DNA of 64,000 nucleotides from Salibacter halophilus. Its GTDB lineage: Bacteria; Bacteroidota; Bacteroidia; Flavobacteriales_G; Salibacteraceae. The stretch lies in contig NZ_WACR01000004.1 in NCBI RefSeq assembly GCF_008806325.1, positions 124,001 through 188,000 of the forward strand, in the 5' to 3' direction. The notes beneath the pieces are model-generated. The model had not been told where the DNA came from. It was given only the letters and a program-made list of their open reading frames with translations, and ran no database searches. A program made the translations under genes and the position numbers. Shown in pieces: positions 1 through 4,607 of the stretch. Each line of letters begins with the position of its first letter. Positions within the stretch are counted from its first letter, which is position 1.

Positions 1-3
1 TTT

Positions 4-1203
4 TTATTTTCTTATTTGTCCATTACCCAGGACATAATATTTATTAGTCACCAATTGTTTTAGTCCAAGCGGACCGCGGTGGTGAAGTTTGTCAGTACTA
101 ATTGCAAGCTCAGCACCAACTCCCATTTGACCACCATCAGTAAAACGTGTTGAAGCGTTGTGATAAACAGCCGCACTGTCAATCTGCTCCATAAACTTAG
201 AAGCATCAGCTTCATTTTCAGTCAATATTGTATTTGAGTGACCACCTGAATAATGGTTGATAGTTTCGATAGCGTCATCGAGTCCGTCAACTGCTCCAAT
301 TGCAGCTTTCATCGCGAGGAACTCCTCAAACCAAACATTTTCATCTTTGATTTCATCGTTTGTATCGAGTTTGTCGATTACATCGCTGCTTGCGATAATT
401 TTTACGCCTGCATTAGAAAGTTCAGACTCAATTTTCTTGAGCGTTCCTTCAAAATCAGGATGATTTTTATCGACTAATACTTTATCGAGAGCATTACATC
501 CTGATATTTTATCAGTTTTAGCGTTGATAATAACCGGAATAACTTTTTCCATATCAGCATCTGGAGCTACATAAGCAAAGTTATTTCCACGGCCACTGAT
601 CAGAACCGCACATTTAGCATGCTCTTTGACAAAATTGATCAACTTTTCACCACCGCGTGGCACGATGAGATCGAGTGGTTGATCTGGATTGCGCAAGAAT
701 TCTTGTGTCGTGGCGCGATCCATTTTGAGATACTGGATCCAATCCTCTTCAAGACCATTGTCTTTTAAAGCCTTGTGCCAGCATTTAACGAGTTCTTCGT
801 TACTGTTGTGGGCTTCTTTACCACCTTTTAGTAATATTTTGTTGTTTGCTTTAAATGCGAGAACAGCAGCTTCAATTGTAACATCTGGGCGAGACTCGTA
901 AATGATCATGATGGTTCCGAATGGAGCCGTTTTGTTCGTGATTTTGAGTCCGTTCTCGAGCGTATCATCACTGATAGTTTTACCTACCGGATCATCTTGA
1001 TTTTTCACTTCACGCACGGCTCTAATCATGTCATCAACTTTAGCTGAATCTACTACAAGCCTGTCGTAAAGCGCCTGATCATCACGATCAAATGCTTCGA
1101 GATCTTTTTTGTTTGCTGCAATGATGGCTTCCTTATCTTTTTCCATGTAGTCCATCATTGACTGTAATACTGCATTCTTTTTTTCTTCGCTTAAAAGCTT
1201 CAT
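4..1203 (-). CDS. proA: Gamma-glutamyl phosphate reductase (glutamate-5-semialdehyde dehydrogenase)
   Basis: Catalyses the second step of proline synthesis, NADPH-dependent reduction of glutamyl-5-phosphate to glutamate-5-semialdehyde, in the cytosol. The 399-residue length fits an ALDH-fold ProA. The catalytic cysteine is seen as SGCNALDK (Cys about 236), and the family signatures LLKGGKEAHNSN (about 125-135), VPRGGEKLI (about 181-189) and the C-terminal HHRGPLGL are present. It is the last gene of proC-proB-proA, read from 2903 downward. The 65-bp gap to proB holds a hairpin made of two inverted copies of the GGTCAGANCC repeat, which may lower proA expression relative to proB. Start is the ATG at 1201-1203. 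Confidence 0.95.
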   Translation of the reverse strand: MKLLSEEKKNAVLQSMMDYMEKDKEAIIAANKKDLEAFDRDDQALYDRLVVDSAKVDDMIRAVREVKNQDDPVGKTISDDTLENGLKITNKTAPFGTIMIIYESRPDVTIEAAVLAFKANNKILLKGGKEAHNSNEELVKCWHKALKDNGLEEDWIQYLKMDRATTQEFLRNPDQPLDLIVPRGGEKLINFVKEHAKCAVLISGRGNNFAYVAPDADMEKVIPVIINAKTDKISGCNALDKVLVDKNHPDFEGTLKKIESELSNAGVKIIASSDVIDKLDTNDEIKDENVWFEEFLAMKAAIGAVDGLDDAIETINHYSGGHSNTILTENEADASKFMEQIDSAAVYHNASTRFTDGGQMGVGAELAISTDKLHHRGPLGLKQLVTNKYYVLGNGQIRK

Positions 1204-1235
1204 ATATAAAATTGATTTTATTCGAAAATCTTGTC

Positions 1236-1262
1236 GGTCAGAGCCGATTTTCGGTTCTGACC
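1236..1262. repeat. Inverted pair of GGTCAGANCC repeats forming a hairpin between proB and proA
   Basis: A forward copy (1236-1245) and a reverse copy (1253-1262) face each other. With the adjoining bases they form a 12-bp stem with one G-T wobble (GGTCAGAGCCGA against TCGGTTCTGACC) and a 3-nt loop. No T-run follows on the minus strand, so it is not a strong classical terminator of proB. It could attenuate transcription or stabilise the upstream RNA. Inverted uptake sequences forming intergenic hairpins are known from Neisseria; the analogy is inference. Confidence 0.85.
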
Positions 1263-1268
1263 ATCACA

Positions 1269-2066
1269 TTACTCATCATCTTCCTGAAAGATGCGAGTTC
1301 CAACATCCTTGCCATGAACAATATCCATGATGATATCTGGTGTTTTACCGTTGGCAATAAATGTTGTTATGTCCTTGGCAGCAGTTTTCTTTGCAACATT
1401 TAGTTTGGATTCCATTCCTCCACGTCCTTCACCTTCTTTTTTGGTAGAAGACTGTACGAATTGTTCAACTCTTTGATCAGTTGTGACGTGTGTGATCAAT
1501 GATGAATCATCATGATCAGGGTGACCGTCATACAATCCATCAGTATCAGTGAGGAGGATAAGCATATCGGCATTGATCAACTCTGCAACAAGACTTGCTA
1601 ATTCGTCATTATCTGTAAACATTGACATGGATAATGATACTGCGTCATCCTCATTTGCAATAGGAACAATTCCCTGGCTCATGAGTCCTTCGTAACAGTT
1701 GATCATGTTTTCGCGATGCTTACCGGGATCGAAATCTCGTTTCGTAGCCAACACTTGTGCGCAGCGCATTCCGTAATCGTGGAACATGCTGTAATAGTGT
1801 CGCATCATGCGAGGTTGACCAACTGCAGAGTAAACCTGCCTGCGTACTGTATCATTTTCAATGTTATTGGTGTCCAGAACTTCTTTACCGGCAATTACAG
1901 AACCGGAAGAAATTAAGACTGTAATGACATCTTCCTCATATAACCTGGCTATTTGATCAACCAGTCTTTTGAGGATTGGGCCAACGATTCGGTTATCTTT
2001 ATTAACCATTACGTTAGTCCCTACTTTTACAACAACTCTCTTTTTGTACTGCTTTTCAGAATCCAT
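1269..2066 (-). CDS. proB: Glutamate 5-kinase, short form without PUA domain
   Basis: Phosphorylates glutamate to glutamyl-5-phosphate, the first and usually proline-inhibited step of proline synthesis. The 265 residues cover the amino-acid kinase fold only: VVKVGTNVM near the N-terminus, VLISSGSVIAGKEVL (about 50-64), IVPIANEDDAVS (about 133-144) and LLTDTDGLYDGHP (about 170-182). The C-terminal RNA-binding-like PUA domain of the E. coli enzyme (367 residues) is absent, as in several other bacterial lineages. It lies 18 bp after proC and shares its transcript. Start ATG at 2064-2066. Confidence 0.95.
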   Translation of the reverse strand: MDSEKQYKKRVVVKVGTNVMVNKDNRIVGPILKRLVDQIARLYEEDVITVLISSGSVIAGKEVLDTNNIENDTVRRQVYSAVGQPRMMRHYYSMFHDYGMRCAQVLATKRDFDPGKHRENMINCYEGLMSQGIVPIANEDDAVSLSMSMFTDNDELASLVAELINADMLILLTDTDGLYDGHPDHDDSSLITHVTTDQRVEQFVQSSTKKEGEGRGGMESKLNVAKKTAAKDITTFIANGKTPDIIMDIVHGKDVGTRIFQEDDE

Positions 2067-2084
2067 GTCTAAATGTGCGCGTTT

Positions 2085-2903
2085 TTAACTGTTTTCGTTT
2101 TGTTCTTTACCGAGTTCAACTGCGCGATTGAACGCGGCATATGCTGCTTCTTCAACGAGATCTTTGATATTGTTGTCCTCCATTGAATCAAGTGCTGCAC
2201 GGGTTGTACCGCCCTTAGATGCAACACGGTTCATCCATGATGCAGGACTGAGATCTGACTTGTTGAATAATTCTACAGCTCCTTCAAATGTTTGACTCAC
2301 TAAAACTTTAGAATCGTGTTCTGAGAAACCCATTTTGCGAGCTGCGTCCATCATGCTTTGCATGAAATAGAATACATATGCAGGACCACTACCTGAAATT
2401 CCTGTAGAGGCATCAACATCGTTCTCTGTGTCGAGACGAACAGAGCGACCTGTTGTATCGAGTAGTTTTTCTACAGTTGAAAGCTCAAGTCTTGAAACTT
2501 CGTCTGAAGCTGTAAATGATGTTAAACCTTTTCCAACCTGTGCTGGTAAGTTTGGCATTGCACGAACAACTTTTGTGATGCCGAGTCCATCTTTCATACT
2601 TTGAATTGTTACACCTGCCATGATGGAGATCGCAAGTTGATCTTTTGTCATCATCGGTTTTAACTGTTTAAACAATTCTTCAGAGTGATATGGTTTAACC
2701 GCGATAAAGATAATGTCTGCACTGGGAAGACAATCTTCTAGGTTCGTGTAAACATCAAAACGGCTTACTTTTTTGAGTTCTTCTGTTTTTTCCGGACTCG
2801 TATCCGAAATCATCAGGTTTGTTTTTTGGAGAAATTCTGATTTTACGAGGGCTTTAGCGTAAGCTAATCCCATATTTCCTGCTCCAATTACAAGTACTTT
2901 CAT
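2085..2903 (-). CDS. proC: Pyrroline-5-carboxylate reductase
   Basis: Catalyses the last step of proline synthesis, NAD(P)H reduction of 1-pyrroline-5-carboxylate to proline. The 272 residues start with a Rossmann loop GAGNMGLAYAKAL (about 7-19). The middle has FIAVKPYHSEEL and VRAMPNLPAQVGKG, and the C-terminal dimerisation domain has the P5CR signature region GISGSGPAYVF (about 168-178) and GTTRAALDSM. It is the first gene of the proCBA operon, so the complete glutamate-to-proline pathway is encoded here. I see no good TAnnTTTG element directly upstream, so the promoter is not located. Confidence 0.95.
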   Translation of the reverse strand: MKVLVIGAGNMGLAYAKALVKSEFLQKTNLMISDTSPEKTEELKKVSRFDVYTNLEDCLPSADIIFIAVKPYHSEELFKQLKPMMTKDQLAISIMAGVTIQSMKDGLGITKVVRAMPNLPAQVGKGLTSFTASDEVSRLELSTVEKLLDTTGRSVRLDTENDVDASTGISGSGPAYVFYFMQSMMDAARKMGFSEHDSKVLVSQTFEGAVELFNKSDLSPASWMNRVASKGGTTRAALDSMEDNNIKDLVEEAAYAAFNRAVELGKEQNENS

Positions 2904-3058
2904 GAATGAAAATTTTCAGTCTTAAAGTTAATTAATTTATTCACTCCTTAGCCGCAAGGTTTGTGCATTTTGTGGGTTTAAGAGATTATATGTCTGTTAA
3001 TGTCAAGATGATAGGTTTTTGTAAACAATTTAAAATCAATATTTAACAGCTTATTTCT
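2904..3058. other. AT-rich intergenic region upstream of proC
   Basis: Non-coding and AT-rich. It should contain the proC promoter (minus strand) and the end of the porin transcript, but I cannot point to a convincing promoter or terminator. Confidence 0.5.
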
Positions 3059-3220
3059 TTAACTAAAATAAAAAAATATTGTACTGGGTGTCATATTGTT
3101 TGCTTTTGCGCCATATAGTCTGAATGCTGCAAATGCGTCATATTTACCTTCGTGTTGTGTATTTGTTTCTACAATTCCGAGACTCTGATTTGTGGTGATC
3201 ACGGAGCTAGAAGTTGACAT
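3059..3220 (-). CDS. Possible small ORF (53 aa) overlapping the end of the porin gene
   Basis: An ATG at 3218-3220 lies inside the last codons of the porin gene, in another frame, and opens a reading frame of 53 codons ending in TAA at 3059-3061. The predicted peptide begins MSTSSSVITTNQSLGIVETN and ends in PSTIFFYFS. Its composition is protein-like, and the stretch is clearly less AT-rich than the non-coding DNA beyond its stop. I recognise no family. It could be a translationally coupled small protein, a remnant of a decayed C-terminal domain, or chance. Confidence 0.35.
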   Translation of the reverse strand: MSTSSSVITTNQSLGIVETNTQHEGKYDAFAAFRLYGAKANNMTPSTIFFYFS

Positions 3221-4607
3221 TTACAATTAAATTGTAGTGGCTGAAGTAAGTGCGGTAAAACATGTTCTTTTCAGGAATTGTGATATTCTCATCAGAGATC
3301 CGATAGATGTAAATAAACCTGAGATCAAGCCCTTTGAGCATCCCGTTGAAAGAATATTGGATATCAGATGTCAATTGGCTGTAAGGCGGAATTGCGTACT
3401 TGTTATTCTCAAGATCTTTTTGGGATACTGAAAAAATTCTGTTGTAAGCAAAGCCGGCATTTATATCACCGTATTTGGAGTTGTTGATACGGTAGTTCGC
3501 TTTTAGCTTCATCACATCAGAATTACCAAACCCGTCCTGCCAGCTTCTCGGTTCTGAAGTGAAGAAATTGTCTCTTCCCAATTCTCTCGGATAGAGAAAG
3601 CGACCTCCTTCAAAGGTATGCAGGTAATTCCCTGTGAGTAACCAGTTTGAAAGTTTTGTGCCGAGTTTTGCTGCAATGATATTTGCGTTTTCACCGGGTT
3701 GGTAGTAGCGATGGTTATAATCGAGCTGCTCTTGTTTAGGGAGTGCATGCTGAAATACGTACTGTACACCTGCCAATATATTTTCATTTTCGTAGTGTCC
3801 TTCAAGCCAGTGTATACCGTATATTCGGTCAAGCCAGTTAGTCCATAAGTTTACGCTCCATTTTTTCCCAATTTTATGTTGATGGCCTGCAACAACCAAT
3901 GCTCTTGTATCACTTTTCTTGCGGTAATTCGATATTGTTCCATCAGGTTGTAATCCTCTACCAATAATTCCGATTCCATCATTCAAAGAATACCAGTTTG
4001 TCATTCCGCGGGATCCTATTCCGTTGATTACTCCCAAAAAAGATTTGCCTTTTGCATGTTGATATTCGCTCCATATTCCCTGATAAACGAAAGGCATCAT
4101 TCGACCATCTAATTGCTGGAGAAGCGGTTCCTGATCAATATTTTGACTTCCAATTGTAACACGAATGTTTTCCTGTTCATAGCTGAGGTATAACTCATCA
4201 AAGCGAGTGTGTGTTTTATCAAAATTCGTTTCATTTAAATCGTAAAGTTCACTTTCCCATTTAGCACTTAATTGTGGGCTTGAATCGTTATACAATTCTG
4301 ATGAGAATGTTTTGAATGCGATGTTTCCTGTTACACCCAGACTAAAACCATGGAATTTTGCTGTTTGAAATTTTAGAGAACCGCCAGTGGCATTTGTCCA
4401 GTAGTTTGGAAGGGTGGAGTGGTGAACGGTTGCCATGAAGTAATTTCGGATCTGACCATTAAATTTACCTTTTGAGAAGAATTCACTCAGGTTTTCGATA
4501 TCGGTAGAGTCTGATTGTGAATTAGCGTGTGTTTCTAACGGGGTAATTAGAAGGAAGAAAACGTAAAAAAATAGTAATTTTTGTGAGTATATTTCCTTTA
4601 ATGACAC
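3207..4607 (-). CDS. Outer-membrane porin, OprD-like
   Basis: Probable outer-membrane beta-barrel channel. An N-terminal signal peptide (hydrophobic LLFFYVFFLLITP, cleavage near THANS) is followed by KGKFNGQIRNYFMATVH and TGGSLKFQTAKFHGFSLGV, matching the start of OprD-family barrels (short plug, then strands rich in alternating aromatic residues). The protein ends in phenylalanine (LIVNVNF), as barrel proteins do. At 466 residues the size fits the family. The start is a GTG (4605-4607); no in-frame ATG exists before residue 59. A GGTCAGANCC copy lies at 4448. The substrate is unknown. It is divergent from mscL. Confidence 0.75.
   Translation of the reverse strand: MSLKEIYSQKLLFFYVFFLLITPLETHANSQSDSTDIENLSEFFSKGKFNGQIRNYFMATVHHSTLPNYWTNATGGSLKFQTAKFHGFSLGVTGNIAFKTFSSELYNDSSPQLSAKWESELYDLNETNFDKTHTRFDELYLSYEQENIRVTIGSQNIDQEPLLQQLDGRMMPFVYQGIWSEYQHAKGKSFLGVINGIGSRGMTNWYSLNDGIGIIGRGLQPDGTISNYRKKSDTRALVVAGHQHKIGKKWSVNLWTNWLDRIYGIHWLEGHYENENILAGVQYVFQHALPKQEQLDYNHRYYQPGENANIIAAKLGTKLSNWLLTGNYLHTFEGGRFLYPRELGRDNFFTSEPRSWQDGFGNSDVMKLKANYRINNSKYGDINAGFAYNRIFSVSQKDLENNKYAIPPYSQLTSDIQYSFNGMLKGLDLRFIYIYRISDENITIPEKNMFYRTYFSHYNLIVNVNF

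Follow-up and report, generated by a model that had tools for sequence, protein, structure and literature searches.

In Neisseria and Haemophilus, short pairs of uptake words that face each other are concentrated at the 3' ends of genes, and the hairpins formed by such words serve as terminators, according to two studies (PMC1852404, PMC7811141). The first study places the uptake word in about 55% of high-confidence terminators of Neisseria, gives A before and T after the facing pair as the favoured arrangement in Neisseria and Pasteurellaceae, and already records an excess of opposite-strand words at very short range. In addition, PMC1939737 discusses whether uptake sequences are evenly spaced, and PMC2397512 reports a spacing that matches conversion tracts. 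The top short repeats listed for the naturally transformable Riemerella are AT-rich strings (PMC7965970), and a search of open literature turned up no paper that describes a word of the uptake-sequence type in Bacteroidota. Here, we describe a hairpin of Salibacter halophilus that is, taken alone, a minor feature; its importance is that it leads to such a word in Bacteroidota.

The hairpin between proB and proA

The window (the whole stretch of 64,000 nucleotides that was analysed) contains three proline genes on its minus strand. The first gene of the presumed operon is proC (pyrroline-5-carboxylate reductase, 272 aa, 2085..2903), followed by proB (glutamate 5-kinase, 265 aa, 1269..2066) and proA (glutamate-5-semialdehyde dehydrogenase, 399 aa, 4..1203). 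These names rest on NCBIfam equivalog models that score above cut-off, namely TIGR00112 for proC, TIGR01027 for proB, and NF001221 with TIGR00407 for proA, and the order proC-proB-proA is found again in related loci. An intercistronic gap of 65 nt (1204..1268, minus strand) separates proB from proA and contains the entire hairpin, which begins 6 nt past the proB stop and ends 32 nt ahead of the proA start.

Positions 1236-1262 read GGTCAGAGCCGATTTTCGGTTCTGACC in the window sequence, i.e. GGTCAGAGCCGA-TTT-TCGGTTCTGACC, and sequence and folding define an unstranded hairpin with its stem at 1236-1247 / 1251-1262 and its loop at 1248-1250. The first-pass annotation had described a 12-bp stem with a 3-nt loop and only one wobble pair in the proB-proA gap. 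Sequence and shuffle folding bear out the stem, the loop and their location, but the single wobble pair (G·U) belongs to the plus strand; in the mRNA, which corresponds to the minus strand, that pair is an A·C mismatch, and the hairpin consists of 8 bp, the mismatch and a further 3-4 bp. For a 41-nt stretch, the folding energy is -17.7 kcal/mol in the mRNA versus -22.1 on the plus strand, with z-scores of -5.0 and -6.5, respectively, and none of 200 shuffles folded equally well on either strand. The earlier remark that no T-run follows is also correct for the mRNA, where GACAAGATTTTCG comes next.

The arms were likewise rightly recognized as inverted copies of one word. Both match GGTCAGANCC, a genome-wide uptake-sequence-like word: copy 1 (GGTCAGAGCC) occupies 1236..1245 on the plus strand, and copy 2 (GGTCAGAACC) occupies 1253..1262 on the minus strand and faces copy 1 across a gap of 7 bp. 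The stem extends beyond the word by two base pairs (GA/TC) because the motif's own flanks are RR/YY.

No comparable hairpin is present in the proB-proA gaps of the six closest relatives. In Marivirga, which provides the nearest relatives of proCBA, this gap is 34-76 nt long and AT-rich. Rfam covariance models run against positions 1-3500 gave no match up to E = 1; with the hairpin missing in Marivirga and the other closest relatives, and with no Rfam match, a conserved proline-operon attenuator was rejected. The proA gene was not found in either of two congeners, both of whose genomes are incomplete. In some other Bacteroidota, the proB-proA gap is occupied by long insertions or by strong hairpin repeats of different, unrelated kinds (L029, L032, L081 and, in Gelidibacter, L038, L051, L058, L076, L077 and L091), and the spot therefore tolerates hairpins.

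A genus-specific word and its spacing

The window holds 36 copies of the 10-letter word GGTCAGANCC, where 0.16 are expected. Across the 3.12-Mb genome the total is 1,482 (739 + 743 on the two strands), against 4 copies (3 + 1) of a reversed-pattern control. An extended motif, TWWYGGTCAGADCCRRAA, was derived from 590 copies, among which the only common changes are G-to-A at positions 1 and 2; with its flanks, a facing pair is preceded by T and followed by A. The two congeners hold 824 and 486 copies. The word stands above background in all 3 genomes of the genus and in 0 of 32 others of the family, and a search for other dialects in sister genera, which covered five genomes with 80 kb apiece, gave no comparable word. 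Strand use is balanced on contigs of either GC-skew sign, and a polar site of the Chi or KOPS type was rejected for the lack of orientation skew along replichores.

Most of the genome statistics refer to 2.06 Mb of the 3.12-Mb genome, with genes from a custom gene caller; the word copies of the window (1236-62834) are part of this sample. In this sample, 92% of 995 word copies lie inside called genes. Of the 389 coding copies in sense orientation, 71 fall within the first tenth of the gene and 21 within the last tenth, a preference for gene starts, while antisense copies are commoner overall (523) and lean slightly to the second half of genes. One region of 43 kb is free of the word (G000 contig C3, 84941-128289; L134-L136), and its genes include a type I R-M system, a Piwi-domain protein, RND efflux and a BT4734-like/DUF3987 protein.

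How closely does this resemble the known uptake sequences? By published figures, on which all comparisons with Neisseria and Haemophilus rest, the likeness to the DUS of Neisseria and the USS of Pasteurellaceae is broad: about 1,500 copies with a 10-bp core and AT-rich flanks on both strands, restricted to a genus and spaced about 2 kb apart, to which the absence from a single mobile-type island may be added. The differences are the other phylum, an exclusion of same-strand copies within about 1 kb, the uptake role, which is here a probable one, and the share of copies in genes, 92% here versus 65% for H. influenzae and 35% for N. gonorrhoeae (PMC1939737).

ComEC is also encoded in the genome, alongside a type II secretion/type IV pilus-like operon with pilin, prepilin peptidase, ATPase and secretin (L237:231-722 and the next genes; G000 contig C13, 5384-13899), the pilin of which scores just above the cut-off of Pfam ComP_DUS, the uptake-sequence receptor. 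Relatives that lack the word have the operon too, its distribution in the family does not follow that of the word, and the two incomplete congener genomes gave no trace of it. It is therefore compatible with uptake but is no proof of it.

The arrangement of neighbouring words follows a rule that depends on strand. Under a null that keeps word positions, gene strand and in-gene orientation bias, the 2.06-Mb sample contains 87 same-strand pairs within 1 kb versus 195 expected, 188 convergent pairs versus 98 expected (a twofold excess), and 111 back-to-back pairs versus 93 expected. In-gene orientation bias is present, but the convergent excess survives the null that keeps it, and the bias is thereby rejected as the cause. 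The convergent excess reaches about 700-1000 bp, and the effect fades past about 1.5 kb; by distance, convergent pairs peak below 60 bp, dip at 60-200 bp, and show a second broad excess at 200-700 bp. The spacing sample from one congener (G024) is a small set of 47 words in 199 kb. To our knowledge, same-strand exclusion with a convergent excess within about 1 kb is without published counterpart. Strand-resolved exclusion was not found in the available parts of the literature on uptake-sequence spacing (PMC1939737, PMC2397512, PMC1852404).

Facing pairs, gene ends and terminators

A genome-wide search for inverted pairs, which the first-pass annotation had proposed, revealed a modest excess. 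With gaps of 0-30, there are 12 facing pairs in the genome versus about 5.4 by random placement, and 3 and 6 in the congeners versus about 0.8 and 1.9, so that the three congeneric genomes together hold 21 versus 8.1 expected (Poisson p ~1e-4); the genome of the window has 4 back-to-back pairs. Words in pairs this close amount to 24 of the 1,482, i.e. under 2%.

These pairs are not placed like other words: among the 12 strict facing pairs, 7 are non-coding, versus 71 of the 971 remaining words (Fisher p = 9e-6). Each of these 7 pairs overlaps a gene 3' end or is no more than 35 nt away from one. When the set is widened to 16 non-coding pairs (the strict ones, two with a tolerated mismatch, and those of the congeners), 14 are no farther than 35 nt from a stop codon or gene 3' end versus 30% of random intergenic placements, and short facing pairs are therefore concentrated at gene 3' ends. 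The parallel with Neisseria and Haemophilus that had been drawn for the hairpin thus extends to placement just past stop codons. This placement, with the separate peak below 60 bp, suggests that some facing-pair hairpins act at transcript 3' ends. Within the pairs, however, position 8 is free, and the two arms agree there in 3 of 9 non-coding cases, about as by chance; the gap between the copies runs from 1 to 29 with no preferred length. Both results are what a stem not under selection would give.

Are these hairpins terminators? In this genome, 36 of 101 convergent 3' ends have a U-tailed hairpin behind them, versus 1.3 in shuffles, and proA itself is closely followed, just outside the window, by a textbook U-tailed terminator, CCCTGACAAGCCGCAAGGCTTCGTCAGGGTTTTTTT. 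The proB-proA hairpin has no U-tract after it on the transcribed strand, and the other strict non-coding word hairpins likewise lack a U-tail. An intrinsic (Rho-independent) terminator was rejected here for the missing U-tail, which the real terminators of the genome possess. Only 3 of 182 U-tailed hairpins contain the word. Moreover, the motif does not supply a U-tail, since the polarity of its flanks, T before and A after, is the reverse of what a terminator needs. The hairpin thus shares with the terminator hairpins of Neisseria and Haemophilus the two facing copies and the position just past a stop codon, and differs in the lack of a U-tail, the opposite flank polarity, the small fraction of words that are paired and the free loop length. 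Like REP-like palindromic repeats, it lies between co-directional genes and may stabilise mRNA, but the repeated element here is one short word that in most of its copies has no partner and lies within a gene.

Explanations of the hairpin

We consider the best explanation, with a probability of roughly 0.6, to be that the hairpin is a convergent pair of genus-specific, uptake-sequence-like words in a tolerant 3' spacer, that it is not an intrinsic terminator, and that it gives at most weak protection to the proB 3' end. The word would spread and persist for a reason at the DNA level, most likely the recognition of self-DNA in natural transformation. Convergent pairs exceed chance throughout the genome, in the hairpin range as well as at 200-700 bp, with the proB-proA pair at the short end of that range; this pair would have landed in the tolerant spacer right behind the proB stop, where the transcript can fold, and the stem would be a by-product of two motif copies that face each other. 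Several results argue for this explanation: the copy number against that of the control, the expansion confined to the genus and the RR/YY flanks that give the extra pairs; the convergent excess far past hairpin range, under a null that retains orientation bias; the mismatch in the mRNA, the lack of a U-tail and the gaps of the six closest relatives; and the word-free island with its mobile and defence genes, along with ComEC and the pilus-like operon. Against it stand the non-coding pairs past stops, the peak below 60 bp, and the failure of the pilus operon to track the word. A regulatory effect of the hairpin is probably lacking, and a gene-control switch is unlikely.

If the hairpin instead blocked 3'-to-5' exonucleases, it would protect the proC-proB part of the mRNA, and the RNA levels of proB and proA would differ. 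Such an RNA-stability element would fit the position 6 nt behind the proB stop, the stable stem, the 14 of 16 non-coding pairs near gene 3' ends and the peak of facing pairs below 60 bp. Against it speak the A·C mismatch, complementarity at position 8 in just 3 of 9 pairs, the unconstrained gaps and the closest relatives, which have the same operon without the hairpin; the 3' placement could equally reflect avoidance of hairpins in leaders. We regard this role as rather unlikely. The hairpin could also act as an attenuator or a partial terminator, with less proA than proB as the result; the earlier annotation had considered an attenuator that sets this ratio. In favour are the location between co-transcribed genes and the uptake-word hairpins that act as terminators in Neisseria and Haemophilus (PMC1852404, PMC7811141). 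Against are the genome's own terminators, which have the U-tail that is missing here (the one after proA included), the scarcity of the word in U-tailed hairpins, the wrong flank polarity, the empty Rfam search and the lack of conservation, with no comparable hairpin in the gaps of the six closest relatives; such a role is unsupported and very improbable.

The pair could also matter as DNA, with the two facing words bound cooperatively by a protein (the uptake receptor or another) and the RNA hairpin irrelevant. Enrichment of convergent pairs and depletion of same-strand pairs out to about 1 kb would agree with such a site, as would the freely varying gap between facing copies, although the latter would not suit a single fixed helical phase. 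So close a pairing involves only 24 of the 1,482 words, no protein is known to bind them, and close pairs in Haemophilus gave no more uptake than single words (PMC7811141); a cooperative site is very improbable. Perhaps two of the 1,482 words simply landed face to face in the gap, with nothing else needed. For gaps up to 30, random placement would give about 5.4 facing pairs against the 12 seen, so the proB-proA pair could itself be a random one, but the overall excess in three genomes and the concentration at 3' ends make chance as the whole explanation extremely improbable.

What makes the hairpin worth following, under our preferred explanation of a convergent word pair, is the word, apparently unreported in Bacteroidota, with its strand-resolved spacing. 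We tentatively suggest that GGTCAGANCC may be a DNA self-recognition word that evolved in this Bacteroidota genus separately from those of Neisseria and Haemophilus, that the strand-resolved rule may point to a strand-specific step of uptake or integration, and that the proB-proA hairpin would be among the shortest of the convergent pairs. Should the word be an uptake signal, a third lineage would have arrived independently at self-recognition in transformation, and the spacing would offer a testable clue to the upkeep of uptake words.

A minor observation concerns the genes around the hairpin. The proA gene is 83-86% identical to that of Marivirga, whereas the Rho of the genome is nearest to those of Flavobacteriales among the genomes compared; by this difference, the proCBA cluster (4-2903 of the window) looks as though it has moved laterally.
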